From contig NZ_AOCK01000002.1 in assembly GCF_000348945.1 (NCBI RefSeq), positions 1 to 64,000 on the forward strand: a stretch of DNA of 64,000 nt, in the 5' to 3' direction. How positions within the stretch are numbered: the first letter of the stretch is position 1; each line of letters starts with the position of its first letter. Source of the stretch: Paeniglutamicibacter gangotriensis Lz1y. Its GTDB lineage: Bacteria > Actinomycetota > Actinomycetes > Actinomycetales > Micrococcaceae. Below, piece by piece: positions 29,979 to 62,197 of the stretch. Position numbers and translations under genes: made by a program. The notes under the pieces are model-generated. The model worked only from the letters and a program-made list of their open reading frames with translations. It had not been told where the DNA came from and did not search any database.

Positions 29979-31120
29979 ATACCTTGAGCACCCGTTCCAA
30001 ATTGAAAGTCGTGACCGTCGTTGGGACCCGGCCAGAGATCATTCGTCTATCATGTGTCATCCAGAGGTTGGAAGAGGCTACCGAGCATGTCCTGGTCCAC
30101 ACTGGTCAGAACTATGACTATGAATTAAACGGTGTCTTTTTCGAGGACCTTGGGCTACGTCGTCCCGACCATTTCCTCGAAGCTGATACATCATCGCTTG
30201 GTGCGGTTCTAGGTGACGTCTTGAAAGGAACTGAACGCATCCTGATCGAGGAAAAGCCAGACGCAATGGTGGTTCTAGGAGATACCAACAGTTGCATTTC
30301 CGCACTTATAGCCAGACGTATGAAAGTGCCTGTTTACCACCTTGAAGCGGGGAACCGGTCCTTCGACCCCAACGTCCCCGAAGAAATCAACCGACATCTG
30401 GTGGATCACGTCAGTGACTATAACCTTGTCTACACCGAGCACTCGCGACGCAACCTACTTTCCGAGGGACTCCACCCGAAGAACATTCTGTTGATGGGGT
30501 CGCCGATTGCAGAAGTACTTGCGACGTATGGCGGTGCAATACGAGAATCCAGTATTCTCGAAGACCTGAGACTCACTCCCCGACGTTACCTGTTAGCAAG
30601 TGTTCACAGAGAAGAAAACGTAGACCGGGCAGATCGTTTGCGTTTAGTGCTGGATTCGCTCCAGGCTGTTGCAGAGGAACGGGACATGCCAATCCTAGTG
30701 TCAACTCATCCGCGAACGAGACAACGGATAGAGAAGTTTGGTCTCGAATATGGTTCAAGGATCAAGCTTCACAAACCGCTGGGATTCCTTGACTACAACA
30801 AGCTTCAAATGGAAGCACACTGCGTGATCTCTGATTCGGGGACGATCTCGGAAGAATCCACGATGTTGGGCTTTCCCGCCGTGACACTTCGGGATGCCAT
30901 CGAGCGACCAGAAGCCCTAGATACCGGTGGGATCATAAGTACGGGTCTGACGCCGGGCGATGTGGTGGATGCGGTTCAACTGACTGTCCGCCAACATGAG
31001 GTTGACGGACCAGCAGTTGTGCCTTCTGACTATCAGATTCAGGACTCATCACGCCGTGTGGTCAATTTCATTCGTTCCACTGCTCGAACTCATCATGCTC
31101 GTCAGGGAATACGGATATAG
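29975..31120 (+). CDS. capG: UDP-N-acetylglucosamine 2-epimerase-like enzyme (CapG/WecB family)
   Basis: 381 residues with the GT-B-like fold of non-hydrolysing 2-epimerases. Motifs are VVTVVGTRPEIIRLSCVIQR at the start, LVHTGQNYDYELNGVFFED, VVLGDTNSCISALIARRM, VYHLEAGNRSFDPNVPEEIN and SDSGTISEESTMLGFPAVT. Placed directly after capE and capF, it most probably performs the last C-2 epimerisation to UDP-L-FucNAc (CapG role), rather than making UDP-ManNAc. It is the last gene before an AT-rich gap. Confidence 0.93.
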   Translation: MNTLSTRSKLKVVTVVGTRPEIIRLSCVIQRLEEATEHVLVHTGQNYDYELNGVFFEDLGLRRPDHFLEADTSSLGAVLGDVLKGTERILIEEKPDAMVVLGDTNSCISALIARRMKVPVYHLEAGNRSFDPNVPEEINRHLVDHVSDYNLVYTEHSRRNLLSEGLHPKNILLMGSPIAEVLATYGGAIRESSILEDLRLTPRRYLLASVHREENVDRADRLRLVLDSLQAVAEERDMPILVSTHPRTRQRIEKFGLEYGSRIKLHKPLGFLDYNKLQMEAHCVISDSGTISEESTMLGFPAVTLRDAIERPEALDTGGIISTGLTPGDVVDAVQLTVRQHEVDGPAVVPSDYQIQDSSRRVVNFIRSTARTHHARQGIRI

Positions 31121-31435
31121 AGTTGGGAAATAATAAAATCATAAAAACACTCTATTCAATCCATTTTTCGTAGTATCTTTATGACGTCAAAATTTCATGC
31201 AACAATGCGAGAGGTTTGTAATAACGCATTTAGAAGCACAAAAATTTTGATTCTTTATAATAACAATTATTTTATAGGACTCTAACTAAAAGACCTCCAG
31301 TTAGAATCGAAGTCGAGCATAACCATGTGGTTTGACAATATATATTCGACCGATCTTAAACGATATATGTCACTCGTTGTGTATAATGAATATTTTCATA
31401 AATAAATTATAATTTTGAAAGATTGATGAACGCAA
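31121..31435. other. AT-rich intergenic block inside the capsule locus
   Basis: About 315 bases, dominated by A/T runs, between capG and a glycosyltransferase, in strong contrast to the surrounding high-GC genes. No open frame with a recognisable product was found. It probably contains a promoter for the downstream pair, and marks a junction where a gene block of different origin was joined. Confidence 0.5.
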
Positions 31436-32566
31436 ATGAAAATTGCCATTCTGTGCACAGGATTTCCGCCAGCGTATTTGGGGGGTGGTCCTATTAGGAC
31501 AATAACCGCCATGTTAACTTGGGCGGATCCGCGGCACGACGTCGTGGTTGTCACCAACAATTTTGACGTGGGCTCGCCGGAACCGCTCGTGGATCTGACT
31601 GACAGGTGGCATAAGTGGGGCATGGCTAACGTCAAATATCTGCCACGAGGGATGAAAGGTCTGATTCGAGGCATACGCACAGTATTTCGTTCTCGCCCCG
31701 ATGCCATTTATGCGAATAGCTTCTTTAGTCCTCGATTTTCAATCGTATTTCAGATCCTCAATAAAGTCAATAGATATTCAGTTTTGGTAATCGCGCCGCG
31801 TGGAGAGCTTGATCCAGGTGCCCTAGCACAAAAAGCTGTCAAAAAACGTGCTTATATCGCTTTGTCTCGCGCGCTAGGAATAACACAGAACGCTATTTGG
31901 CATGCTTCATCTACTCTTGAACTAAAGAATATAGAAATGGCTTTGGGACACAAAGTTCGAAGCATAGTCCGTGAAAATGACACCCTATTACCCGAGCAGG
32001 CCTTGCCAGCTAAAGAGCCCGGAAATACTTTGAGTCTCGTAAGTCTTTCTCGAATTTCGCGGAAAAAGAATATCCATGTTCTTCTGATTGCTCTTTGCGC
32101 AGTCAGAGAAGTGGTCAGTCTTGACATCATTGGTCCGGCTGAAGACGAGAGTTACTTTGCGGAATGTCAGGAAATCGTCCAGCGGCTTCCTCCCAACATT
32201 CACGTTCGCTTCGTTGGATCAATCGAGGCCCCACTCATAGTTGATCGTCTGAACGGCTACGATCTCATGGTGTGCCCGACATCGGGTGAAAACTTTGGGC
32301 ATGTCATTGCAGAGAGTCTGGCGGCTGCGTGCCCTGTCATGTGCGCCGATGTGACACCGTGGACTAAAACTCTCCGTACTGGGGGAGGCGTTATTGTAGA
32401 CACCCATGACCATATTGGATGGGCGCAGAGCATTACTGAATACTCCCAGGGGGGTGCCGCATTTTGGCGGGAACGTCGTGAAGAATCAAGACGGGCCTAT
32501 TCAGCTTGGACAGCGGGCCGGACTGAGCCACACTTTTTCGACTTGCTTGAGAATGAGATCTTGTGA
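31436..32566 (+). CDS. Glycosyltransferase, GT4-like
   Basis: 376 residues. The N-terminus MKIAILCTGFPPAYLGGGP carries the GG-P donor/acceptor loop of GT4 enzymes. The C-terminal Rossmann domain has LVSLSRISRKKNIHVLL, IIGPAEDESYFAECQ and GYDLMVCPTSGENFGHVIAE, the last containing the E-x7-E-like nucleotide-sugar motif. It is lower in G+C than nearby core genes. It overlaps the flippase gene by 4 bases. It probably adds one sugar to the lipid-linked repeat unit. Confidence 0.88.
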   Translation: MKIAILCTGFPPAYLGGGPIRTITAMLTWADPRHDVVVVTNNFDVGSPEPLVDLTDRWHKWGMANVKYLPRGMKGLIRGIRTVFRSRPDAIYANSFFSPRFSIVFQILNKVNRYSVLVIAPRGELDPGALAQKAVKKRAYIALSRALGITQNAIWHASSTLELKNIEMALGHKVRSIVRENDTLLPEQALPAKEPGNTLSLVSLSRISRKKNIHVLLIALCAVREVVSLDIIGPAEDESYFAECQEIVQRLPPNIHVRFVGSIEAPLIVDRLNGYDLMVCPTSGENFGHVIAESLAAACPVMCADVTPWTKTLRTGGGVIVDTHDHIGWAQSITEYSQGGAAFWRERREESRRAYSAWTAGRTEPHFFDLLENEIL

Positions 32567-33798
32567 ATTCTAGAGGCGTACGAAGCATGGCGCTCCAAGT
32601 AAAACGTGGGCTTTCGAGCAGATACTTTCGGGCGATCATAGTCTCTGGATTGGCCAGCCTCGCGCCGACAATTGTGACATTGGCATTGGCCAGATCTGGG
32701 ACGTTAGACCCGCTGGGACTATTTGGGGCGATGTACGCAGTCTTCTTATTGGTCCAACAGCTAATGAGGGACATGTTCGTAAACGCCTTCTTGGCTCATA
32801 AACCGTCGATTGTGGATCAGAGGCTTAAAGCAGGTGTGGTATCGCTGGCGGGATTGGTCGTCGCCGGCTTATTGCTTCTCATTTCCATGCCAATGCAATC
32901 ATTGCATTTTGCGGTTCTTGGTGCTTGTCTCCACGGAATATTGCTTGGATCTTACTTTCGCACCCTTGATCTGAGCTTGGGCAACGGCCGATCAGCGTTA
33001 ATGCAGGAAATGGCGGTCTTTTGCTCGGTACTAGTCGCAGGTATCGCGTCCGTTCTGTATGGAACCAGTGGATTCTCCGTTGTGATTACATGGGCGGTGT
33101 CCTACGCGCTGGTGGGTTATATCTCTAGCTGGAAGGCGAAACTCCGGGTAGTACCACGGTGGGAAATGACACCACAAGAATCCCGAACTGGCCGTGGGTT
33201 TGGGTTCCAAGGCTTAGTAGGTTCGGGTTCCGTTCACGTGTTGACATTGCTACTAACCACGGTATCGACTGCAGTGGTCGGCGTATTTCGAGTCAGCAGT
33301 ACATTGCTGGGGCCCGCTAATCTGATTAGCAGTGCATTGCAACCGATCCTAATCGGTTCTCTTTCTGACGGAAACGGCCCCCGGACAATTGCTGGGGGTG
33401 CTGCAGTCGATTGGCCACGTGCAAAAGTATCCGCTGTAGTACTTCCGGTGGTTGTATCTCTAGTTTGTCTGGCACTATTGGGTGTGGGCTCTTTTTGGGG
33501 CGCCCTTCTATTCCCTGGCTTATGGGAAACGGCATCCCCAATCGTTGCTGTGATGTTTTGGGATGTCATTATTGTCGCAATTGGCTTGGTTCCTCAAACA
33601 ATCCACCGAATCACGTGGGCAAGTAGGCCTGCGTTGCTGATAAGTATTCTGAGTGCTTCAATTCGTATTCCAGCTGTGCTAATTGGGGCCGTGGTTTTTG
33701 GAGCCATCGGTGCCGCATATGGATTCTTAATTGTTACAGTAATAAATACTGCTTTACTTTGGTTGTCATGTCTTCGTTTGATTAGAAATAAAATATGA
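32563..33798 (+). CDS. Polysaccharide repeat-unit flippase-like membrane protein
   Basis: 411 residues with about twelve hydrophobic segments, for example FRAIIVSGLASLAPTIVTLA, GVVSLAGLVVAGLLLLISMP and VSAVVLPVVVSLVCLALLGV. Size, topology and position behind a glycosyltransferase suit a Wzx-like exporter of undecaprenyl-linked repeats (MVF/MATE superfamily). Sequence motifs in this family are weak, so the call rests mainly on topology and context. Alternatives are a polymerase or another transporter. No ligase-type loop was seen. Confidence 0.65.
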   Translation: MNSRGVRSMALQVKRGLSSRYFRAIIVSGLASLAPTIVTLALARSGTLDPLGLFGAMYAVFLLVQQLMRDMFVNAFLAHKPSIVDQRLKAGVVSLAGLVVAGLLLLISMPMQSLHFAVLGACLHGILLGSYFRTLDLSLGNGRSALMQEMAVFCSVLVAGIASVLYGTSGFSVVITWAVSYALVGYISSWKAKLRVVPRWEMTPQESRTGRGFGFQGLVGSGSVHVLTLLLTTVSTAVVGVFRVSSTLLGPANLISSALQPILIGSLSDGNGPRTIAGGAAVDWPRAKVSAVVLPVVVSLVCLALLGVGSFWGALLFPGLWETASPIVAVMFWDVIIVAIGLVPQTIHRITWASRPALLISILSASIRIPAVLIGAVVFGAIGAAYGFLIVTVINTALLWLSCLRLIRNKI

Positions 33799-34275
33799 AA
33801 TAAAACTAAGTGTGCATTATCGTAATCTAAAGCAACGTGATTATGGCTTAAAATACTTTTTGTAGGAATTGAACTTATAATCGCATTTTAATGATAACTT
33901 GACTTGATGTTGTTATAACCGCAAGCTTCGATTGAATATCAAGAGGGATGCTTGCATTTCCATGAAGAACGGTCGAGGATCCTGCTCAGTAGTGGCGGCC
34001 AGAGCGGGTGAAACTTAAAGTGATGTCCCGAGAGAATGCATGCCAACTGCGCGGATAACCGCGGCCAAGTCGGCATATTTGACATTACATTTCGGCAAGC
34101 TTTTGGACTATAAGTCATCGATGGCGCTTCGATTGGAACAATGTTTTTCGGAACCTGGACAGATCATCGTCAGGCCGGAGCTCACTTGGTGTCGTATGAA
34201 TTTTTGTATACCGCAGTCTGATGATGAGAATCGACTTCGGTTCATCAAGTGGCGTTACCGCGGAGTAGAAGACGT
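33799..34275. other. AT-rich non-coding gap after the flippase
   Basis: About 480 bases. The first 180 are very A+T-rich, and composition then returns towards normal. A short frame at 34040-34285 has no ribosome site or family motif and is not accepted. Nothing else is supported. It may be what remains of a gene at the end of the capsule operon. Confidence 0.45.
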
Positions 34276-34875
34276 TCACACCTGAGTTGCATGGGCCAGT
34301 TCAAATTCGACGATTGTCCTGAGTGAAGGTAGTAATTCGTCCACCATGCGTTCGTAGACCGCATCGTTTTGCCGATAGGGATCAACGACATCCATGCTTC
34401 CGCTGAGTTTCATTCGGGCGGAGTGGCGATTTAGGGGAGCAATCTTGAGAAGTGTCACCCATCGTTCCAAAACCGCTGCAGGCCGATTGCCACTTGGGAA
34501 CGATACGCTTGAATTTGCCATCAATTCAACGAGTACAGCAGCAAATTCACGGATCGTGTATGTGCGCTTTAAGAGCTTGGGACTTAGCTGAACAATTTGG
34601 CTACGGTGCGCGTCGGTCAGCGCAAGTACGAGATCGACTTCACTCGCCATATCAGACGTTAGTTGACGTGCCGAGAATCCATCGGCCGAGATTCCAATGT
34701 CTCTAAGTTTGTTTGACGCGCGATCGTCCATCTGATGTCCGGCCAATGCATGCGTTCCTGCACTTTGAATATCGAACGATCTAGGTGAGAGGCGGTTCAA
34801 TTCGGATTGAAGAAATAGTTCGGCATAAGGTGATCGGCAAATGTTGCCGGTGCAGACTGTGAGGATCCTGATCAT
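34276..34875 (-). CDS. Low-molecular-weight protein-tyrosine phosphatase
   Basis: 199 residues. The P-loop is VCTGNICRSPYAE (C-x5-R-S) at residues 8-20, and the general-acid loop is VVDPYRQNDAVYE near residue 170. QSAGTHALAGHQMD and TSDMASEVDLVLALTD are also typical. In capsule loci such enzymes dephosphorylate the tyrosine cluster of the BY-kinase (here at 38220). The gene is opposite in direction to the capsule operon and the kinase. It is slightly longer than the common 150-residue form because of an insert around residues 120-160. Confidence 0.9.
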   Translation of the reverse strand: MIRILTVCTGNICRSPYAELFLQSELNRLSPRSFDIQSAGTHALAGHQMDDRASNKLRDIGISADGFSARQLTSDMASEVDLVLALTDAHRSQIVQLSPKLLKRTYTIREFAAVLVELMANSSVSFPSGNRPAAVLERWVTLLKIAPLNRHSARMKLSGSMDVVDPYRQNDAVYERMVDELLPSLRTIVEFELAHATQV

Positions 34876-34970
34876 GACTTGATCTTAGCCAATCCGGCAG
34901 GCCTTTCATCGAAGGTAACGAGTGAGCCGTCGCAAAAAACGACGGCGTTTGCCCTTGGATTCTAGGGGTC

Positions 34971-36834
34971 GTTGCAACACCAGTGTTCAGCTAGCTATAA
35001 GTAAACCACGAAGTCGTTCGGCAGGGCTATCCCAGCCGAGCGACCTGCGCGGACGGTTGTTGAGTCGCTGCTCAACGAATTTGAGGTCCGCCGGACCGTG
35101 GACCGACAGGTCGGTGCCCTTGGGGAAGTATTGGCGCAGCAGCCCGTTGGTGTTTTCGTTGGAGCCGCGCTGCCAGGGGCTGTGCGGGTCGCAGAAGTAG
35201 ACATTTATGCCGGTGGCGATGCCGAAGCCCTTGTGGTTGGCCTTTTTCACGCCTTGGTCCTAGGTCAGTGACCCGCGCAACTGCGCCGGGAGGCTGCCCA
35301 TGGTTTTGATCAGCGCATCCCGCACCGTTTCGGCTGTGTGGTCCCCGTCCAGGTGGACCAGCATGACGTTGCGGGTTTTGCGTTCCACGAGGGTGACGAT
35401 GGCCGATCCGCTATGGGCTCCAACCGCCAAATCCTCTTCCCAGTGCCCCGGGATTGCGCGGTCTTCGACCTCTGCGGGGCGTTCGGAGATGTTGACCATC
35501 GGGTCGCGGAATCGGCTGGCGCGTTTTTCGGGGCTCTTATGTTTTTTGCGATAGGTGCGTCCGGTGCACAGGGCTGGCTTGGCCGCACGTCAGAGCCCGC
35601 CGCGAGACGGCACATAGATGGCTTGGTAAATGGTTTCGTGGGTCGCGCGCATCCGGAGGTCATGGGGGTGGTCCTTGATGAGGCAGTTGGAAATTTGTTC
35701 CGGGGACCAGTCTTCCTTCAGCATCTTCTCCACGTAGTCCCGCAGCGGGCCGGGTTCCGCCAGCTTGCTGGACTTGAAGCGGGCCCTGCGGCCGGCCGCA
35801 GCCCGGTGGGTGCCGTGGGATATGTACCCGAGCTTCGGATGCCGGTTCCGCGCAATCTCGCGGCTGATCGATCCCGGGCAGCGGCCCAGCTCCCGAGCGA
35901 TCGCCCGTTGCGAATCGCCCCGGGACAGCATATCGGCGATGGTTTCCCACTCTTGCACTGACAGGTAGCGGGAGCTGATCTCCTGTTCCACGACAGCCAA
36001 CGGCGTCGGGTGTGGCGAGCCTGCAGGAATGCCGAGCGGAGCGTACGTGGACGTATTTTCTTGCTCCGTAAAAGATGTAGTCACCTCAAGGTTATACGCC
36101 AGCGGAGGCGTATCCGGGTAAACGTACCGCCCATCGATCTTCACCATGCCGTCGTCCCAGCGCTGCCCGGTCCTCGAGACCACTCCGACGCTCGTTGCCG
36201 CTTCCTGACGGCTGAGTCCCAGCGCGCGCAGACGCAGGTATTCTTCCTTCCGTCCCGGAATCACCTTCGGCTTGGACTTGCCGTGCTTGCGAGCCCAGTT
36301 GAAACACGTGCTGCGGTTCAAGCCCAGCCGGGCGGCAGTGCCGTCCACGGAGTCCAGCTCGGCCAGTACGACGAAGAACTCATCCTTCTGCGCCTGTGTG
36401 TACTTGCGCGAGGGTCCCTCTGCTCGTGGCTTTTTATCCACGGCGCCGGACTTATATGCCCAGTCGAAGGCTGTCGGCACGGGCATTCCCACTTCCCTGG
36501 CTGCCGCACTGATGTTACCCAAACGGTCTAGAGCAACCAGGAATTGATCCCTGTCATCCTGCGTGAATTACCGTTTGGTGTTTCCGGCGGAGAACCCGGC
36601 GGCACGGGCCCAATCGTAGCCGGTGGGCCGCGGTATCCCGATGTCCCGGGCAGCCTTGGTGACACTGCCCCAACGTTCCAGTGCGTCAAAGAAACGGTTC
36701 TTGTCCGCTTGCGTATAACTACGGGGCTTGGGGCCACCTACGGCGACAGGCGCGGAACCCAATTTTTTCCTTAGAGGCAATTTTTTCCTTAAGGAAAGAT
36801 CTTGAATTGATTCGTCGGTCACGTTCGTTGCAAC
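34971..36834 (-). mobile_element. IS30-family element, decayed
   Basis: A single transposase-coding region of IS30 type (34987-36822). GTTGCAAC occurs near both ends (34971-34978 and 36827-36834) and may belong to the terminal repeats, but the outer ends could not be fixed. Its insertion appears to have removed the 5' part of the transposase gene that starts at 36844. Confidence 0.6.
34987..36822 (-). pseudogene. IS30 transposase with three in-frame stop codons
   Basis: One uninterrupted reading frame of about 610 codons contains TAA at 36568-36570, TGA at 35590-35592 and TAG at 35260-35262, and no frameshift. Repeated helix-turn-helix segments come first (GSVTKAARDIGIPRPTGYDW, then NISAAAREVGMP and GTAARLGLNRSTCFNWA). 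Next comes the IS30 HTH (SRGDSQRAIARELGRCPGS) and the DDE core: HWEEDLAVGAHSGSAIVTL, LT*DQGVKKANHKG, and FCDPHSPWQRGSNENTNGLL with the catalytic Glu. The TGA probably replaced an Arg CGA and the TAG a Trp codon. No functional transposase can be made. Confidence 0.9.
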
Positions 36835-54461: not shown

Positions 54462-55994
54462 CTATAGGCCTTGAATCAACAGCTCCGAGAATCCGGCGGA
54501 GTCCACCGGATGTGCGTAGTAGAATCCCTGTACCGTGGTGAAACCCATGGCTTTGAGCTTCGCCGATTGCCCGGCGGTCTCCACGCCCTCAACGATGCAC
54601 TTGAGATTACAGGCAGCAATCAGGTCCGAGATGGCGCGAAGAAACGATTCCTGGGTCGAGTCTCCGGCAATGCCATCAACCAGTGACTTATCGATCTTGG
54701 CTCCGGCGACGGGCAACTGCCGCAGGTAGCTGATGGAGGAGTATCCGGTGCCGAAGTCGTCGATGAAGACCTCGACGCCCATTTTCTGCAGGGCCAGCAG
54801 CGTATAGCGGTGCAGGTTGTCCCCGGACATCAAGCGGTTTTCGGTGATTTCCAGGCACAGGACGCTGGCCGGCAAATCGTGGTGGCGCAACGCCGCGAGC
54901 ACGGCGTCGGCAAAACGCAAGTCATGAAGTTCACGCGAGGTGACGTTGAGATGGACCTTGAAGGCGTTGGTGACGAGTCCGGCGGTGCGCCACATCTTCA
55001 CGTCCTCCAAAACCCGGTCCAGCAGGTATTCGGTCAGCTCCCCGATCATGCCTGATTCTTCGGCAGTGGGCAGGAATTGGTCTGGCCGCACCAAGCCGTG
55101 GCCGGTGCGCTGCCATCTCACCAGGGCCTCGGCACCGATGATCGACTCATCCTCCAGGCAGATCACTGCCTGGTAGGCGGGGAAGAACTGCCCGGCGCCC
55201 AGGGCCTGCCTCAGGTCCGCCAGCATGTCGGCCTTTTCGCGCCGCTCAAAAAGCATGAAGGGCTCGAACTCGACCACCTTTTCGACGCTCGAGCGCTTGG
55301 CCACATACATGGCCGTGTCCGCTTCCAGCACCAAGCTGTCGGGGGAGTGGCTTTCGGTGGCCTTGGCTATGCCGAGGCTCGCGCCGGGAGTCAGATGGAT
55401 GTTCTCGACGACCATATCCGTATTCATGGCTTCAACGATGCGCCGACCCACAGTGGTCGCGCTGTATTCGGGCAGGCGCACCAAGACCGCAAATTCGTCG
55501 CCGCCCAGGCGCGCCACGATGTCCTCGGTGCGCACACAACTGCGCAGCCTGTCGGCCAGCTGGCACAGCACCTTGTCGCCCACCGCATGGCCGTAGGTGT
55601 CGTTGATGCTCTTGAATGCGTCCAGGTCCAGCAGCAGCAAGATCGGGGCGGGATCACCGGCCCGGCTGGCTGCCAGTGATTTCTCGATCTCACTCATCAA
55701 GGCCGAGCGATTGGCCAGCTGGGTCAACGGGTCGGTGTAGGCCAGCAGGGCCATTTGGTCGTGGGCCGCCTCAAGCTGCCGGGTGCGTTCGGCCACTCGA
55801 CAATCCAGGGTGGAATACGTCGTCTCCAGTTCGGAAGCCATGGCATTGATCCCCATGATGATGGCATCGATTTCGTCGCGCTTGTTGCTGGGGTGAAGCA
55901 CCGTGTCGAAGTCCATGTCTGCGATCCTGAGGATGGCATCGACGATTTGTGGAATGCGGGGTTCATCCGGCATCGAGGGCCCGGAGTTAGGCAT
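54462..55994 (-). CDS. GGDEF-EAL protein (cyclic di-GMP turnover)
   Basis: 510 residues, cytoplasmic. A helical N-terminal segment (about 20-80) with NAMASELETTYSTLDCRVAE looks like a HAMP-style coiled coil. The GGDEF domain (about 85-245) has DPLTQLANRSALM, DLDAFKSINDTYGHAVGDK and RTEDIVARLGGDEFAVLV, so both the active site and an RxxD I-site are present. The EAL domain (about 255-510) has GAEALVRWQR, HLNVTSREL, CLEITENRLM, VFIDDFGTGYSSISY, KIDKSLV and VEGVETAGQ. Both domains look catalytically complete. It overlaps the STAS-like gene and is third in the GT2 operon. Confidence 0.93.
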   Translation of the reverse strand: MPNSGPSMPDEPRIPQIVDAILRIADMDFDTVLHPSNKRDEIDAIIMGINAMASELETTYSTLDCRVAERTRQLEAAHDQMALLAYTDPLTQLANRSALMSEIEKSLAASRAGDPAPILLLLDLDAFKSINDTYGHAVGDKVLCQLADRLRSCVRTEDIVARLGGDEFAVLVRLPEYSATTVGRRIVEAMNTDMVVENIHLTPGASLGIAKATESHSPDSLVLEADTAMYVAKRSSVEKVVEFEPFMLFERREKADMLADLRQALGAGQFFPAYQAVICLEDESIIGAEALVRWQRTGHGLVRPDQFLPTAEESGMIGELTEYLLDRVLEDVKMWRTAGLVTNAFKVHLNVTSRELHDLRFADAVLAALRHHDLPASVLCLEITENRLMSGDNLHRYTLLALQKMGVEVFIDDFGTGYSSISYLRQLPVAGAKIDKSLVDGIAGDSTQESFLRAISDLIAACNLKCIVEGVETAGQSAKLKAMGFTTVQGFYYAHPVDSAGFSELLIQGL

Positions 55995-56448
55995 CTGCCA
56001 GCAGGAATGCCAAGGCGTCCTGTCGCCTCTCGGTGTAGGTGTGTCGACGCAGTGGATCGATCTTGCGTGCGAAGAACCGGGCCAGGACGCGGTCGGTAGG
56101 CCCGGCGCCCAGCAAGGCGATGCGGATGCCCCCCGTCACGGAATTGAAGATGCGGGAAACTTCTGCATCAACCCTGTCCAAGCCGCAGATGTCGATCAGC
56201 AGGTACTTGATCCTGTGTTCGAGTCGGGTGTTGGCAGTAGCCAGCAGCCCCGTGACCGTGGGGACAGTGAGTTCGGTGTGGGGCTTGAAACTGATCTCGA
56301 GCAATTCGTTGGTGTGGAACGTGAGTTCCGCGTGCTCGGATTCCTGGGTCCAAACCACGTGAGGTTCGGCGGAGGGGGTCACCGGGGCAAGGACTATGGA
56401 CCCGTTCATGGTTCCAGTGCCGACGTCGAGGGAGGGGACGGTCTCCAT
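55987..56448 (-). CDS. Small STAS-like protein
   Basis: 153 residues. The alternating pattern in the second half (LRVEHRIKYLLID-like: TRLEHRIKYLLIDICGLDRV, then FNSVTGGIRIALLGAGPTDR and VLARFFARK) resembles STAS/SpoIIAA-like folds of anti-sigma-factor antagonists. No phosphorylatable Ser/Thr site is certain. METVPSLDVG at 56448 is taken as the start, directly after the GT2 stop. Its end overlaps the GGDEF-EAL start by 8 bases, so the three are co-translated and probably act in one pathway. The exact role is unknown. Confidence 0.6.
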   Translation of the reverse strand: METVPSLDVGTGTMNGSIVLAPVTPSAEPHVVWTQESEHAELTFHTNELLEISFKPHTELTVPTVTGLLATANTRLEHRIKYLLIDICGLDRVDAEVSRIFNSVTGGIRIALLGAGPTDRVLARFFARKIDPLRRHTYTERRQDALAFLLADA

Positions 56449-56450
56449 GG

Positions 56451-58727
56451 TTACTTGACTCCGATTCGTTTGCGGCGATCGTCTTTTCCACGTAGGTCTC
56501 GATCTAGTCGGCGGTCGCCCTGGTACAGCAAGGTCGACCAATCGGTGTTCTCCGGTGTAGCCACAGGGTAGGGGACCTTGGCCGTTTTGGCTTTTTTGGG
56601 CGCGATGAAGAGCCAGTTGACGACACCAAGAGCCATATCGACGATCGAGTTCTTGAAACCAATGTATGCACGAATGGCGTAGAGGGCCAGCACGGAGTTC
56701 AAGGCGGCAAATGCAACATTGCCCCAGTTGCTGTCCTGGAAATCACGCCACATGGTGAAGAGCGAGAAGATGACGATCAGATAGGGGATGACCACATAAA
56801 GTCCCGGCGAGGCGGTTCGGTTGCGGACCTTGGGTGTCCTGACAAAAGGAATCTTGTCCCCGGTAAATGCCTGTTCCATCGACTTGAGGACACCTGCCAT
56901 GTTCACCGGCAGGAGAATCAGGTTGAATCCGTAGATGCGGAAGATGTCGCTAAACCGATGACCGCTGTCGCGCAGGTCGCTGCCCATGGCGATGAAGTAG
57001 GGCAGTGCCGCCGCAAAGATCAGTGGGCTGAGCAGCCGACCGTCATAGGGGTAGGCCAAGAGGAAGATCAAGCCAACGCTGGCCCAAGCAATCGATGACA
57101 TGTAGTTGACCCGCAGTAGCACCTCACGCAATCCAATGCGCTCATTGCGGCGTTTGCGTTCATTGATCTGCCGGCCAAACTTAGGAAGGATCAACAGCCC
57201 GCCGTTGGCCCACCGGCGACGCTGAACCACTAGGGAACCAAAATCGGGGGGAGTCGCACTGTAGCTGAGTCGCTCGGGGTAGTTGGACAAGGTCCAGCCG
57301 AAGGTTCCGAGGTCGATACTCGACTCGGTGTCCTCGATGACGGTGCGATCCTGGATGTAGGTTTGGATTTCGTAACCGCCGACGGTGGCGGTTTGGCTAA
57401 TATCCAGCAAAGCCTGTTTGCGGATGACAGCATTTGCCCCGACCCAGAAGGTGGCGTTGTAATGGGTCTTTCCTTGGTGCAGGATGTGCTGGATATCCGT
57501 GGTGGCACCGGCAAGGCGTTCGATGCGGGTGGGCGCGCCGCGGAAGGAAGAATAGGGGGTTTGGGTCACGGCCACGCGGGAGTTCTCCTCGGATTCGAGA
57601 AAGTAGACCAGGCGCAGGCAATAGTCACGCAGCAACAATGAGTCGGCGTCCAACGTGAGCAGGTATTCGGAGTCCGGGATATCCAGGATCTTGACCGCTT
57701 CTGCGGTTTTTTGCGCTGGATCCAGGGCACGCAGGACCTCGATGTCCCCCCGCTGCTCAACCAGCCACTTTTGACCCATGAGGGAGATGTAGGCGTTGAG
57801 GTTCATGGCTTTGTTCACTTCTTGGGAGAGGTTCGCGTATTTCTTGCGTTCAAACGTGTGCATCTGTACGGAGAAAATGCGCACCAACCGCAGATGAAAT
57901 TCTTCGAGCCGGTAGCTGTCCGGTGAATCGTTTTGTGCGGCGGCCGCTTTAAGCGCCAACAACGTCAGGCGCAGCTCACGTGCCAGGCCCATGATGACCG
58001 AATCGACGAAGAACTCGTCTACATGGTCCTCGACCTTTTCGTTGGCAGCCATGTCCTCGAGCCAGGTCGCGGCCGCCTCATAGGCAACGATCGTGGTGGC
58101 CAGCATTTGCGGGGACGAAGCTCCGGCCTCGCGTTGTTGGCTGAAGAGGGTGTGCGAGGCCTGGGCAGCGTTGAGGGCAGGCTCCAAGTCTCTTTGGATA
58201 TTCGAGGCCAGATCGCGGGTTTCCTGTAGTTTTGCCAGGACCTCGGGATCTTGGGGGTAGGGATTGTCGTCCACGAGCAAAACCACATGCAGGTTCGTGA
58301 ATTCCTGCAAGGCGACTGACCAGAGCGTCTTTCTGACCACTGACGGTTCCTCGGCATAGCTGGGGACCAACGTCGTGATCGACTTGTCATAGGAACGGAA
58401 GTGCCGGTCCAGCTCGCCGCGGGGCACACGGCGGTGCTGGGAAAAGCGCAGAAGCGCTCCCTGCCTGGCGATGAGGTACATCAACGCAGAGAAGGTCAGC
58501 AAGGTGACCACGGCAAGATACATGGCGGCCTCGAAACGGAACCGGAAGCCGGCATCCGGATTGTCTGCCAGTTGTCGCATGATCGTGCTGATCACGTAGC
58601 CAACCCAAGCCAGGATGGTTGTCACAATCGCAATGCGTCCCCATGCCATTTTTCGGCGCGAAGGAATCGGGTGAACTATCGATAGTGGTTCGGATCGCTT
58701 CTCAGCTCCCCATTGCCGCTTCCGCAT
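56451..58727 (-). CDS. Processive family-2 glycosyltransferase (cellulose-synthase-like)
   Basis: A membrane protein of about 758 residues. Two N-terminal helices (about 30-90) precede a large GT2 domain with TTLVPSYAEEPSVVRKTLWS, VVLLVDDNPYPQD (first Asp pair), LLTLDADSLLLRDY (DxD), DRTVIEDTESSIDL (TED-like base) and SLVVQRRRWANGGLL, the Q-x-x-R-W of processive synthases. Several C-terminal helices follow. An insert of about 150 residues after the first Asp motif, mostly helical, is unusual. No PilZ domain was seen. It heads an operon with the STAS-like and GGDEF-EAL genes, which suggests c-di-GMP control. Confidence 0.9.
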   Translation of the reverse strand: MRKRQWGAEKRSEPLSIVHPIPSRRKMAWGRIAIVTTILAWVGYVISTIMRQLADNPDAGFRFRFEAAMYLAVVTLLTFSALMYLIARQGALLRFSQHRRVPRGELDRHFRSYDKSITTLVPSYAEEPSVVRKTLWSVALQEFTNLHVVLLVDDNPYPQDPEVLAKLQETRDLASNIQRDLEPALNAAQASHTLFSQQREAGASSPQMLATTIVAYEAAATWLEDMAANEKVEDHVDEFFVDSVIMGLARELRLTLLALKAAAAQNDSPDSYRLEEFHLRLVRIFSVQMHTFERKKYANLSQEVNKAMNLNAYISLMGQKWLVEQRGDIEVLRALDPAQKTAEAVKILDIPDSEYLLTLDADSLLLRDYCLRLVYFLESEENSRVAVTQTPYSSFRGAPTRIERLAGATTDIQHILHQGKTHYNATFWVGANAVIRKQALLDISQTATVGGYEIQTYIQDRTVIEDTESSIDLGTFGWTLSNYPERLSYSATPPDFGSLVVQRRRWANGGLLILPKFGRQINERKRRNERIGLREVLLRVNYMSSIAWASVGLIFLLAYPYDGRLLSPLIFAAALPYFIAMGSDLRDSGHRFSDIFRIYGFNLILLPVNMAGVLKSMEQAFTGDKIPFVRTPKVRNRTASPGLYVVIPYLIVIFSLFTMWRDFQDSNWGNVAFAALNSVLALYAIRAYIGFKNSIVDMALGVVNWLFIAPKKAKTAKVPYPVATPENTDWSTLLYQGDRRLDRDLRGKDDRRKRIGVK

Positions 58728-59060
58728 TTCCAGGTTCCCGACCCGGCCGTCACTATCAGTTTTATTCAAGACTGTTCTGCTCCCCAGCAAGTCAACGTGC
58801 GCGCTAGGCGGTCTGATTGCCCCCAATGCACTTGTGATCCTGATCCTAGCGTATGATCCTTGCGTGATCAGTATTGTGAAATCGAAAGTTGCACTCAAGG
58901 TTTGCTCAAGTTTTGCCTAAGATTCACGCAAGTTTATTATGTAAATGAATCTATATATTAATTATTTCTATTTATTTTTATGGTAGTTTAAAATCTATAT
59001 TGTGTCTTGCTGTGGGATGTGTTGGCAGGGGGCGGAAACTGATTAAGAATTGAGTTTAAT
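58728..59060. promoter_or_regulatory. Divergent control region of the GT2 operon and GH18 gene
   Basis: About 330 bases between the two start codons. The part from about 58910 to 59010 is extremely A+T-rich, unlike the genes around it. Both promoters must lie here. Such an AT-rich block is a plausible site for a nucleoid protein (Lsr2-like) or other regulator, but no specific operator was recognised. Confidence 0.5.
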
Positions 59061-60626
59061 GTGTCTAACTTGACCGGCGGCAGGCGCCTTTCACTGATCC
59101 GCGTCTTCATTGTTGCTGTGGTGATCGCCGGATTAGTGGGGGGCGGAATGTACCTGTGGAATACGAACCGCGATTCGGCTACAGCTGCCGACACGGGGCG
59201 CTGGTATGGCTCCTATGTGGACGCGACTTCGACGCCGTTCTATCCAATTGCGGAAAATGTCGCGCAAGGGCAAAGAGTGGTCCTGGGGTTCGCCGTGGCG
59301 GATCCCAAGGACGCATGCGTGAATTCATGGGGCGGCTACTACTCCATGGACAGTGCCAACGAGACGTTCGACCTGGATCGCAAAGTGGCTCGCGTGCGAG
59401 AACAAGGCGGGGAGATCGTCATTTCTTCCGGCGGGCTGAATAACGACGAACTCTCCACCGCCTGCACCGACGAACAGAAGATCATTGCCGGATATGAGTC
59501 GTTCCTTCAACGATACGATTCCACCACGCTCGATCTGGATGTCGAAGGAAACGACCTTGAGGATTCTGCAGCTTCCCTGCGGCGTGCCTCTGCGGTGGCT
59601 GCTCTTCAAACCCGTGCCAAGGATGCAGGGAAGCCCTTGGAAGTCTGGGTTACCCTTCCTGTCGATACCAGGGGTCTGACCGAGTCCGGCCTGGGCGAAG
59701 TCAAGCGGCTCCTTGAAGGCGGTGTGGACCTGGCGGGAGTGAACCTGATGACGATGAACTTCGGGGCTACGCGCGCCGCGGGCGACAGCATGGCAGCGGC
59801 GTCGGAGCAGGGGGCACGCAGCGCCCACGCGCAGCTCAAGGCGCTGTACGGCCAGTTGGGACGAGAGATGGGGGACCAGACACTGTGGACGAAGATCGGT
59901 CTCACTCCCATGATCGGCCAGAATGACCTGATGGGCGAGGTGTTCACGTTGGATGATGCCAAGGCCTTGAAGGATTTTGCCGTGACCACTGGCGTAGGCC
60001 GGATCTCGATGTGGTCGGCGAACAGGGATGTGGACTGCGGGCCCAACTTCCCGGATCTGCAACGGGTATCGAACAACTGCAGCGGAACCAGTCAGGAAGA
60101 CGGTGCTTTCGCCAGCCTGCTCGCGGCCGACCTGGACTCCTCCGGCGTCCCGGCGAAGGCAAACCCCTCACCAGTTGAGGCCCCCGTGGAGACGGCCATC
60201 GTCGATGACCCCGCGAAGAGCCCTTACCCGGTATGGAACGCCGAAGCTGCATACCCGAAGTCGGAGCGTATCGTATGGCGCGGCAACGTTTACGAAGCAA
60301 AGTGGTGGACTCAGGGAGAATCCCCGGATCTTCCGGTCAGCGATGTGCGCGCGGCGGCTTGGAAGCTGATCGGCCCGGTGCTTCCCGGCGACAAGCCCGA
60401 GGAGCCGGTCAAGGTGCCGGCAGGAACGTATCCGGCCTGGACGGGCGGAAAGGTCTATGAGAAGGGCGATCGGATCGTGTTCGACGGCCGGATTTTTGAG
60501 GCCAAGTGGTGGAACGAGTCGCAGAATCCCGACGCCGCGGTGCAAGGCGCCGTCGATTCACCGTGGTCTCGCCTAAGCAACGAGCAGGTCAAGAACATCC
60601 TCAAGGAGACCAAGAAGACGTCGTAA
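59061..60626 (+). CDS. Membrane-anchored GH18-like protein with two carbohydrate-binding repeats
   Basis: 521 residues. An N-terminal anchor (LIRVFIVAVVIAGLVGGGMY) is followed by a GH18 chitinase-like barrel: VVLGFAVADPKDACVNSWGG, EIVISSGGLNNDEL, TLDLDVEGNDLED with the D-x-D-x-E catalytic motif, and VNLMTMNFG. At the C-terminus are two ChiC/CBM5-12-type repeats, YPVWNAEAAYPKSERIVWRG with YEAKWWTQGESP, and YPAWTGGKVYEKGDRIVFDG with FEAKWWNESQNP. It probably hydrolyses or remodels a beta-linked amino-sugar polymer, possibly the product of the divergent GT2. The GTG start is assumed. Its end overlaps the convergent TPR gene by 26 bases. Confidence 0.88.
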   Translation: MSNLTGGRRLSLIRVFIVAVVIAGLVGGGMYLWNTNRDSATAADTGRWYGSYVDATSTPFYPIAENVAQGQRVVLGFAVADPKDACVNSWGGYYSMDSANETFDLDRKVARVREQGGEIVISSGGLNNDELSTACTDEQKIIAGYESFLQRYDSTTLDLDVEGNDLEDSAASLRRASAVAALQTRAKDAGKPLEVWVTLPVDTRGLTESGLGEVKRLLEGGVDLAGVNLMTMNFGATRAAGDSMAAASEQGARSAHAQLKALYGQLGREMGDQTLWTKIGLTPMIGQNDLMGEVFTLDDAKALKDFAVTTGVGRISMWSANRDVDCGPNFPDLQRVSNNCSGTSQEDGAFASLLAADLDSSGVPAKANPSPVEAPVETAIVDDPAKSPYPVWNAEAAYPKSERIVWRGNVYEAKWWTQGESPDLPVSDVRAAAWKLIGPVLPGDKPEEPVKVPAGTYPAWTGGKVYEKGDRIVFDGRIFEAKWWNESQNPDAAVQGAVDSPWSRLSNEQVKNILKETKKTS

Positions 60627-61632
60627 GCCGAGCCGGCAACGCGTAAGTCGCGCCTTCCACTGTCTTTTTAATACGGGTGGCGTGGTCGCGTTCCCGTTCA
60701 GCCGCTTCGGTACGCCCCAAAGCGTCGAGGACCTGTGACCACAACAGGTGCACCGAGGCATCCTCCGGCGCACCACCGGCATCGGCATCAACCAGCGCCT
60801 TTTCCAACAAGGAGGAAGCCTGCTCGAGATCGCCGTTGGCCACATGCCATCGTGCCCGGGTTCCGGCCAGTCCCAGGAGCTCCACTGCGTTGCCTCCGAT
60901 GATGTCGTAGGCCAGCCGGGCACGCAGAATACAGTCGTCGGTGCTCTGGTTGGCAACGCCGGCCTGCAACTGCACATCGGCGCTCGCATTGTTGAACCGC
61001 GCCCACATATGTATGTCGTTGATTTGCTGTAATTTGTCGGCCGCCCGCTGATGATAGGAAAAGCCGTCGGTCACATGGCCTTTCGCAAAGGCGAGATTGC
61101 CCAACGTCCAAAAACCCTGCCCGGCCACCAAGGTGTCCTCAACATGTTCCAAGGTGCGGGACAAAGGGTGGTGGATGGCCCAGGCCTCGTCGGTCTTGTC
61201 CGCCTCGACCAAGCACGCAATTATTCCTTGGTAGGCCTCGGCGCGGGCGTGATGGCTGTCCTGGATGGTTTCCATAACGGCCAGGGCCGTGCGTGCGGTG
61301 TCCACTGCTTCGTCGTGCCGAGACTGGTTTCGCAGGGCAGCTGCACGCAGGATCAAGACCTGGACCTTGAACAACAGGTCGCCTTGCATTCGGGGGAAGT
61401 CGAGGATTGTTTCGGCGGTTTGAAACGCGACGGCATACGCACCGGTCAGGATCTGGCTTTTTCCCATGTCGTAAAGGAAGTCGGATTCCTTGGCTTGATC
61501 ACCCAGTGCCCCGTAGAGGCGGGCACACTCCGCGGCTGCTTCCAACACCTGCTGCTGATCCCCTGCGTTGCGGATACTGCGGTGGTGTGCTTCCGCTTTG
61601 GCGGCGAGGAATTGAAGTGAACGGTGGGGCAT
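60601..61632 (-). CDS. TPR-repeat protein, putative peptide receptor
   Basis: 343 residues, almost all helical, with several TPR-like units, for example ECARLYGALGDQAKESDFLY, HDEAVDTARTALAVMETIQD, GFWTLGNLAFAKGHVTDGFS and ARWHVANGDLEQASSLLEKA. No helix-turn-helix or enzyme domain is visible. Length and all-TPR build are like Rap-type receptors of the RRNPP family, in which secreted peptides re-enter the cell and bind the TPR groove. It is divergent from the small peptide gene at 61865, 232 bases away, which is the usual neighbour arrangement of such pairs. MPHRSLQFLAAK (61632) is chosen as start. The receptor function is inference. Confidence 0.65.
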   Translation of the reverse strand: MPHRSLQFLAAKAEAHHRSIRNAGDQQQVLEAAAECARLYGALGDQAKESDFLYDMGKSQILTGAYAVAFQTAETILDFPRMQGDLLFKVQVLILRAAALRNQSRHDEAVDTARTALAVMETIQDSHHARAEAYQGIIACLVEADKTDEAWAIHHPLSRTLEHVEDTLVAGQGFWTLGNLAFAKGHVTDGFSYHQRAADKLQQINDIHMWARFNNASADVQLQAGVANQSTDDCILRARLAYDIIGGNAVELLGLAGTRARWHVANGDLEQASSLLEKALVDADAGGAPEDASVHLLWSQVLDALGRTEAAERERDHATRIKKTVEGATYALPARLTTSSWSP

Positions 61633-61864
61633 GACCTCAATTATGCTCCATGTGGCCCCGGGCGCTTCCACCGCTTCCTTTCTCCGGGAGTCGTGGAACG
61701 GACGAGATAACAGGCGACACCAAAATTTTGCTGGTGAATCCATCTCTCATAAGTGCAAGTGAGACGTATAATAGGCCCTTGGGGTTGCCGACCTGTTTGA
61801 GGGTGCGGGCATTACGGGCACCGCCCCGATCACTCGCCCGAATACCGATTGAGATGGAGAATAC
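61633..61864. promoter_or_regulatory. Divergent promoter region of TPR and peptide genes
   Basis: 232 bases. TATAAT at 61767-61772 is a perfect -10 box for the peptide gene, with no good -35 at 16-18 bases, so transcription may need an activator. The leader would be about 85 bases, ending at GATGGAGAATAC before the ATG. The TPR gene start is preceded by TTGAGGTC. Confidence 0.5.
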
Positions 61865-62080
61865 ATGAAGAAGATCCTGGGTTCGGCCCTTGCCGCAATG
61901 CTTCTTGCCGGTGCAGTGGTCGTTGGCGGAGCCTCCGACATTGTGCAGCCCGACAGCAATTCGGCGCAGAGCGTTGGCATCGTCAAGCCCTTGGGCGGAA
62001 ACAACAACTGGCCCTTGCGCGAAGTGTCGCCGGCGGGCGGCATCAGCACCATCGCGGGAAACAACAACTGGCCGCTGTAG
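61865..62080 (+). CDS. Secreted pre-peptide with duplicated GNNNWPL, candidate signal
   Basis: 71 residues. MKKILGSALAAMLLAGAVVV is a clear signal peptide (two Lys, hydrophobic core), with cleavage likely near GGAS. The remaining 45-48 residues contain KPLGGNNNWPLREVS and end TIAGNNNWPL, so the heptapeptide GNNNWPL occurs twice, the second copy being the exact C-terminus. Pre-peptides of the Phr type have this build: export, then release of a short C-terminal peptide by proteases. The gene has a GGAG ribosome site, a perfect -10 box and its own strong terminator. It faces away from the TPR gene. Alternatives are a small exported peptide with another role. Confidence 0.75.
   Translation: MKKILGSALAAMLLAGAVVVGGASDIVQPDSNSAQSVGIVKPLGGNNNWPLREVSPAGGISTIAGNNNWPL
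61997..62017 (+). repeat. First GNNNWPL-coding repeat
   Basis: Seven codons beginning GGAAACAACAACTGGCC, the same 17 bases as at 62057-62073. The last codons use different synonymous bases (CCC TTG against CCG CTG), so the amino acid repeat is kept despite silent changes, which suggests selection on the peptide. Confidence 0.85.
62057..62077 (+). repeat. Second GNNNWPL-coding repeat, at the C-terminus
   Basis: Seven codons directly before the TAG stop at 62078-62080, encoding the same heptapeptide as 61997-62017. Confidence 0.85.
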
Positions 62081-62146
62081 GTTCCACACGCTTCGGTCAA
62101 GGCCGATGCTACTTCGGTTAGCTCTGATTTCTTCATGAGACGCCGG

Positions 62147-62197
62147 AGGACCGCTGATTCCGCGATTCTCCTGGAATCAGCGGTCCTTGCGTTTTTG
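62147..62197 (+). terminator. Intrinsic terminator after the peptide gene
   Basis: AGGACCGCTGATTCC (62147-62161) pairs perfectly over 15 bp with GGAATCAGCGGTCCT (62173-62187), loop 11 bases, followed by TGCGTTTTT. It shows that the short peptide gene is a separate transcription unit. Confidence 0.9.

Follow-up and report, generated by a model that had tools for sequence, protein, structure and literature searches.

We describe a divergent gene pair of Paeniglutamicibacter gangotriensis Lz1y (Micrococcaceae), in which the gene of a tetratricopeptide-repeat (TPR) protein lies next to that of a short peptide ending in a repeated tryptophan–proline (Trp-Pro) motif. The window analysed is the stretch of 64,000 nucleotides at positions 1 to 64,000 of contig NZ_AOCK01000002.1 (RefSeq assembly GCF_000348945.1), and all coordinates refer to it. 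The pair comprises the following elements.

60601..61632, - strand: TPR-only protein of 343 residues, the proposed cytosolic peptide receptor (open reading frame, alignment with 30 relatives, model)
61767..61772, + strand: TATAAT hexamer, a probable -10 box for the pre-peptide (five orthologues read TANNAT)
61773..61864, + strand: conserved leader of the peptide gene, including the ribosome site (orthologue comparison)
61856-61861, + strand: ribosome site GGAGAA of the peptide gene (read from the sequence)
61865..62080, + strand: pre-peptide of 71 residues, the proposed exported signal precursor (open reading frame; homologues divergent to the TPR gene)
61865..61936, + strand: Sec-type signal sequence, MKK and then a hydrophobic stretch, end approximate (read from the sequence)
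61997..62017, + strand: GNNNWPL copy 1 (open reading frame, orthologue comparison)
62057..62077, + strand: GNNNWPL copy 2, stop codon directly after (open reading frame, orthologue comparison)
62147..62194, + strand: intrinsic terminator with a 15-bp stem, belonging to the peptide gene (sequence, folding against shuffles)

The two divergent open reading frames (ORFs), the duplicated GNNNWPL with a stop directly after its second copy, the peptide gene's own ribosome site and the 15-bp terminator stem had been proposed in an earlier sequence-only reading, and all of them are present. The signal sequence reaches a hydropathy maximum of 2.15, from residue 4. The same reading pointed to a perfect TATAAT box: the hexamer is there, and taken alone it is weak evidence for a promoter, because the window holds eight such hexamers against 5.1 expected and a promoter scan called no sigma-70 site at 61767-61772 and recognized no -35 element. 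Support comes from the five orthologues compared, which read TAGGAT, TAGAAT or TAGCAT at the aligned place and carry a CAGGTGAG-like element ahead of TANNAT at the aligned position. The 92-base leader is conserved among orthologues over much of its length, more than a ribosome site needs; a riboswitch was considered here and rejected, as an Rfam search of 54-64 kb found nothing up to E 1. The terminator stem is perfect, with arms at 62147-62161 and 62173-62187, a loop of 11 and TGCGTTTTT directly after it, and no shuffle out of 200 folded equally well (z -5.5). A similar stem follows the peptide gene in the orthologue L096 (z -4.0, 0 of 200 shuffles). L092 (z -0.2) and L094 (z -1.3) have a different hairpin of 11-12 bp in 150-base stretches that fold no better than shuffles, and the corresponding stretches of L093 (z -1.7) and L095 (z 0.4) also fold no better. 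The terminator is thus not a conserved element, since L096 alone among the five has a like stem.

The description of the receptor as an all-TPR protein is borne out by its AlphaFold model (mean pLDDT 91.9), in which helices span residues 2 to 329 and the N-terminus is built of helix pairs of the repeat type; Rap-type receptors begin with a three-helix bundle to which response regulators bind. In Pfam, TPR_12 falls narrowly below its cut-off (29.9 against 30.1 bits), and no helix–turn–helix (HTH) domain is matched. The protein contains no hydrophobic stretch resembling a membrane helix (19-residue hydropathy maximum 1.19). An alternative in-frame ATG at 61743 would extend it to 380 residues; relatives start near 61632. 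Invariant Trp and Asn residues, placed on alternate helices of the model, suggest that a peptide may be bound in the repeat groove. Searching the organism's own genome with profile A2, from the sister branch described below, recovered this protein as the sole relative (E up to 1e-5). Its last 15 residues, modelled with low confidence, extend past the ends of the nearest relatives, and its gene overlaps a convergent chitinase-like gene by 26 bp (60601-60626). A mobile element was rejected as an origin of the gene: no relative was found in phages (E 1e-3) or plasmids (E 1e-4), and alignment A1 gave no confirmed relative in viral contigs (45 pattern matches). A defence system was rejected as well, PADLOC matches being generic and at the TPR or HTH level only.

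The pair is widely conserved. Among 295 genomes of the family, peptide homologues at E < 1e-6 occur in seven besides its own, all of the same genus, and in all seven a TPR homologue adjoins on the same contig in divergent orientation. One genome of another genus, G025, has a weak peptide match (E 0.006), again with an adjoining TPR homologue. Relatives of the TPR protein reach much further, to 143 of the 295 genomes at E up to 0.001 (own genome included), and many of the 30 best show the same layout with other Trp-Pro motifs. We scored 80 named TPR loci, 79 of them scorable, by a strict rule: a divergent ORF within 1.2 kb, with a signal-like start and a WP followed by at most three residues. 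The rule is satisfied in 61 of 79 loci, and 12 of the 18 misses hold a peptide on inspection, either with the last copy lying some residues before the end or with the receptor start placed too far upstream. Altogether, 73 of 79 loci have a signal-bearing ORF that is divergent to the receptor gene and contains a Trp-Pro motif, in one (L096) to six (L131) copies. Together with the seven same-genus genomes that have a convincing peptide match, this bears out the expectation that homologues of the two genes would be found together, and the layout extends beyond the genus. As a control, an equal stretch downstream of the receptor on the same strand satisfied the strict rule in two of 75 loci compared with 64 upstream, and the other strand in none; a relaxed rule gave 72 upstream and nine downstream (four of the 79 loci, near contig ends, were left out, and 537 ORFs were scanned upstream against 280 downstream). 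Of 7484 ORFs at other places in these loci, 32 satisfied the strict rule, some of them belonging to real second pairs. One locus, L147, carries an Arthrobacter-type receptor, peptide and GGDEF-EAL gene although its record bears the title Vibrio cholerae strain 35D; mislabelling or contamination of the assembly is the probable cause.

Within the peptide, the repeat is the conserved part. Ratios of nonsynonymous to synonymous substitution (dN/dS) across six orthologues, that of the window included, are 0.07 for the repeats, 0.22 for the signal sequence and 0.50 for the linkers (pooled pairs, small numbers). The repeat is accordingly retained while the linkers drift, in line with the sequence-only reading, and it is more than a chance duplication, because it is the most constrained portion of the peptide. 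One copy in L093 reads KNNNWPL, and L096 has a single copy. Further afield, the L131 precursor holds six copies of ATGWWPN and that of L170 five of AIGNWPDPM. In the L159, L166 and L119 precursors the motif is present once, or the sequence stops at WP, while close relatives carry another or a complete repeat; decay is a possible cause.

Regarding the relation between motif and receptor, we placed the motifs on a receptor tree of 85 rows, 80 with a peptide (L148, at a contig edge with no ORF, and L162, short and at a contig edge, were left out). The five-residue core requires 26 changes on this tree, compared with a mean of 45 and a minimum of 42 in 200 shuffles; for the 47 TPR-only rows with a peptide it requires 22, compared with a mean of 34 and a minimum of 30. 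Motif types thus follow receptor clades, and motif and receptor are inherited together. L100 and L128 each have two receptors, with a DDWPH peptide beside the member of one receptor clade and a GNWPD peptide beside the member of the other. L102 has a member of the DDWPH-associated clade that is without a peptide. The branch linking the window's clade to the rest of the tree is long and its placement uncertain.

The receptors fall into two branches. In 46 of 79 loci the receptor is TPR-only, and in 33 it is an HTH-TPR protein, mostly of 421-476 residues as annotated here; the two were separated by sequence pattern, and Pfam, run on the members of sister alignment A2 alone, found an N-terminal HTH in 18 of 18. 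The HTH rows form one clade on the receptor tree (one change). Outside the family, the TPR-only profile gave four matches in three genomes, and those checked match the HTH-TPR profile from its first positions. This distribution suggests that the TPR-only branch lost its DNA-binding domain, the tree being unrooted.

The TPR-only branch has a second conserved neighbour, which the sequence-only reading, supported as regards the pair, had missed. In the window the receptor gene is followed by four genes.

59061..60626, + strand: chitinase-like protein of GH18 type carrying CBM5/12, its gene convergent to that of the TPR protein (exochitinase 9buf, E 1.4e-43; CBM_5_12, E 1.8e-12)
56451..58898, - strand: GT2 glycosyltransferase resembling cellulose or poly-N-acetylglucosamine synthases (Pfam; BcsA, E 1.6e-9)
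55987..56541, - strand: ORF of 184 residues between the GT2 and GGDEF-EAL genes (weak DUF7793 match, under the curated cut-off)
54462..55994, - strand: HAMP-GGDEF-EAL protein, the proposed output partner (domain matches, hydropathy)

NCBIfam CelA and PgaC matches of the GT2 protein are far below cut-off. The single GGDEF and the single EAL match of this genome both lie in the HAMP-GGDEF-EAL protein, which begins with a HAMP-like region, lacks an evident membrane helix and for that reason fits a soluble sensory partner. Flanks of up to 6 kb were fetched on either side of each receptor locus. They contain a GGDEF-EAL homologue at 43 of 46 TPR-only loci, and the 33 HTH loci have none. The three TPR-only loci that lack it are L100, where the chitinase and GT2 genes are there and the flank ends, L138, where the peptide is also absent, and L158, which lies at a contig edge and has a weak partial match. 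The gene stands downstream of the receptor in 26 loci, upstream in seven and past the chitinase and GT2 genes in ten, and in six loci the receptor and GGDEF-EAL frames can overlap by 4 bp (first possible starts). In G025, whose receptor is ~26-30% identical, the window's order of receptor, chitinase, GT2 and GGDEF-EAL is kept; in G200 the GGDEF-EAL gene lies on the opposite side of the peptide. Within the genus, all eight receptor-bearing genomes have EAL and GT2 within about 7 kb of the receptor. Five of the seven genomes without a receptor have neither, and G111 has EAL but no GT2. In the last, G219 (88% complete), both are found on a contig of 6.3 kb, which breaks off at the distal end of the chitinase gene, at the place where one would expect the receptor. 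A motif scan of 35 GGDEF-EAL proteins (that of the window and 34 locus ORFs, of which one is truncated and another is a second gene in L106) found GGDEF in 34, DDFGxG in 34, an ExLVR-type EAL signature in 32 and the narrower VEGVE pattern in three. Elsewhere in the window, G+C content drops to 0.42-0.52 at positions 31001-35000, from 0.52-0.56 over the preceding 9 kb, and returns to 0.54-0.63 over the following 10 kb; this stretch of low G+C holds several TATAAT hexamers and is perhaps a foreign segment.

We compared the pair with known peptide-signalling systems. Rap is a TPR receptor that lacks a DNA-binding domain and acts on proteins, and TprA carries an HTH. The sequence-only reading had likened the layout to Rap-Phr or TprA-PhrA; Rap-Phr of Bacillus is the nearer analogy and TprA-PhrA is not, because the window receptor has no HTH. 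Rap-Phr shares with our pair a TPR receptor without a DNA-binding domain and a neighbouring gene for an exported precursor, and two papers describe internal signal copies in the precursor (PMC9765709, PMC11343458). The present pair differs in its divergent peptide gene, its Trp-Pro signal and the GGDEF-EAL enzyme as a neighbour. The other systems compared, PlcR-PapR, NprR-NprX, AimR-AimP and TprA-PhrA, belong to Firmicutes and their phages; the HTH of PlcR is shared by the sister branch and absent from the window receptor. The sister branch matches PlcR through its HTH part, with an RNPP_C match below threshold, and AimR superposes loosely on the HTH-branch model (root-mean-square deviation 9.8). 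Among TPR-like regulators, the NsdA family (NCBIfam NF053720) is matched by L192, a class-level HTH-TPR relative, at E 1.3e-12; the match is below cut-off (48 against 75 bits), and none was reported for L115, L107 or L096. NsdA is not known to have a peptide partner. RpfR is a GGDEF-EAL enzyme that itself binds a fatty-acid signal, and here, by comparison, the signal would be a peptide and the receptor a separate TPR protein. RpfR, the receptor in BDSF quorum sensing of Burkholderia, is reported to be linked to exopolysaccharide synthesis (PMC9684580).

We read the pair as belonging to an actinobacterial peptide-signalling family that would work like the RRNPP systems of Firmicutes, its membership of that group by sequence not being established. 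We hold with high confidence that the two genes form a peptide–receptor system, and we consider it reasonably probable that the whole is a peptide-signalling module with a cyclic di-GMP (c-di-GMP) and exopolysaccharide output. The 71-residue peptide would be exported by Sec and cleaved outside the cell, each precursor yielding two short Trp-Pro peptides of roughly the sequence NNNWPL or GNNNWPL. An oligopeptide permease may then re-import the short peptide through one of 12 candidate oligopeptide-binding proteins (SBP_bac_5 matches) in the genome. The cytosolic TPR receptor would bind it in its groove and act on a protein, a target expected because the receptor has no DNA-binding domain, and most likely on the neighbouring HAMP-GGDEF-EAL enzyme. 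A change in enzyme activity would alter the c-di-GMP level, which would in turn affect the GT2/GH18 exopolysaccharide cluster next to it. For the sister branch, the N-terminal HTH would instead give a direct transcriptional output. The TPR-only branch probably passes its signal to c-di-GMP and the exopolysaccharide cluster.

Several observations weigh against this reading. First, sequence comparison does not place the receptor among RRNPP proteins. A TPR-type helical-repeat receptor is indicated by the model and the lack of a membrane-like stretch, and the layout and sequence show an adjoining pro-peptide gene with the putative active part at or near its end, export being predicted from the signal-type start. 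Receptor homology by sequence and an N-terminal HTH of the Rgg/PlcR/NprR/PrgX/AimR/TprA type were not found for the window protein. No RNPP model appears among its Pfam matches up to E 1, and its profile found no RRNPP protein and no Rap chain among 45 PDB sequence matches. In structure comparison with the window model, Rap and NprR are in the top 20, below LGN and APPBP2; ten Rap rows align from chain residue 41-44 (six), 4-9 (three) or 101 (one), and the absence of PlcR, Rgg and AimR from the best 50 rows of the VIA-align list excludes nothing. With the HTH model, Rap appears from rank 8, NprR at 15 and AimR from rank 31, with APPBP2, APC/C and MalT higher. The fold does not identify the function, because LGN, APPBP2 and other TPR proteins outrank the RRNPP receptors. 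Since there is no curated-model match and no RRNPP chain in the PDB matches, and other TPR folds rank above Rap and NprR, we do not file the pair as an RRNPP member; sequence searches do not bear out the earlier placement. Second, the conservation has gaps. L099, L101, L102 (at 1029), L113, L138 and L162 have no recognized peptide, L162 lying at a contig edge and the second receptor in the L102 locus having one. In seven of the 15 same-genus genomes the TPR search found nothing at E 0.001 and the peptide search nothing better than E 0.11, and at least six genomes of the genus are without the system. The locus counts overstate independence, because many loci are closely related, the HTH loci above all. 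Third, the motif test speaks for shared inheritance and not for specificity, because shuffling ignores relatedness, and there are exceptions to it: GNWPD occurs in 30 HTH rows and in three TPR-only rows, and GLWPY occurs in L129 and in the distant Glutamicibacter rows L098 and L123. Lastly, export, processing, import and binding are steps that we infer, as are the direction of the output and its physical nature, and genetic linkage is no demonstration of contact; the receptor could act on another protein.

The strongest alternative takes up this last point: the peptide–receptor system is genuine, its output is something other than c-di-GMP, and the GGDEF-EAL gene is co-inherited with the exopolysaccharide cluster while the receptor binds, for example, a response regulator, as Rap does. 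Paeniglutamicibacter-type loci are consistent with this, placing the GGDEF-EAL gene about 4.6 kb off, beyond the chitinase, GT2 and DUF7793-like genes. However, the gene is kept with TPR-only receptors through three different arrangements and is absent from all HTH loci, 30 of the 44 loci with any such neighbour have GGDEF-EAL without a chitinase or GT2 match in the flank, and a soluble enzyme would suit a cytosolic receptor. We regard this alternative as unlikely, while giving it real weight. A role for the peptide outside the cell, for example in binding the GT2-cluster polysaccharide by its Trp-Pro ends with the TPR protein as a local regulator of the cluster, is very unlikely: the pair does lie next to genes for a GT2 enzyme and for a GH18-type protein that has a chitin-binding-type module, but HTH-type receptors have the same kind of peptide without those genes in any of 33 flanks, and motif types track receptor clades. 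Least likely of all is a precursor of a bacteriocin or of a ribosomally synthesized and post-translationally modified peptide (RiPP), with the TPR protein as maturation or immunity factor. In its favour, RiPP precursors can have tandem core repeats and Trp-rich ends, and HaaT, the TPR protein of a cyclophane RiPP, is weakly matched in NCBIfam at the TPR level (E 0.00037; 18.7 bits, the cut-off being 1125). Against it, the five larger neighbours at 54.4-63.6 kb (GGDEF-EAL, DUF7793-like, GT2, GH18-type, VanZ) include no modification enzyme or dedicated exporter, and the DNA-binding domain of the sister receptors suits a regulator.

The peptide-signalling reading may extend beyond the Micrococcaceae. 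We looked in HTH-TPR loci of other families for a divergent ORF of secretory type with Trp among its eight C-terminal residues: 13 of 28 loci have one, compared with four that have such an ORF downstream; the windows of 15 of the 28 run off the locus, and the 13 with full windows give five upstream and none downstream. Their ends include GGSWPT or DISWP repeats, SIGWVYPG, GWNHPG and GGIWCC. For many of these receptors the match to the HTH-TPR profile is concentrated in its initial part, and because this profile covers the HTH it favours HTH proteins in a search. Peptide–receptor pairs outside the family are thus a lead and not a result. The relatives with divergent secretory ORFs and Trp near the end are L082, L083, L178, L182, L185, L190, L192 and L194-L199; the GGSWPT and DISWP repeats run to three copies each, some ORFs have a Cys pair, and these may form one class-wide peptide family. 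Tentatively, and at somewhat less than even odds, the Actinomycetes may have a large pheromone family of their own, with Trp signals and HTH-TPR receptors, of which one Micrococcaceae branch, having shed the DNA-binding domain, came to serve a c-di-GMP enzyme as its sensor subunit.

Published accounts assign peptide signalling by way of TPR receptors to Firmicutes, and actinobacterial signals are described as typically small molecules (PMC10075063). No actinobacterial RRNPP-type pair was among the matches listed in the open-licence literature, outside which lie preprints and most subscription journals, and the peptide motif strings gave nothing there but an unrelated veterinary match. The conserved pair points to an undescribed chemical conversation in Micrococcaceae-type bacteria and, with its hints of a class-wide distribution, would mean that these bacteria of soil and plants have a short-peptide language open to testing. 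With the HTH-less branch one can also test directly whether a peptide signal can be handed to c-di-GMP through a protein partner, and the genetics are unusually clean, because the genome has a single GGDEF-EAL protein. If true, a peptide quorum signal would here be passed directly to a second messenger.

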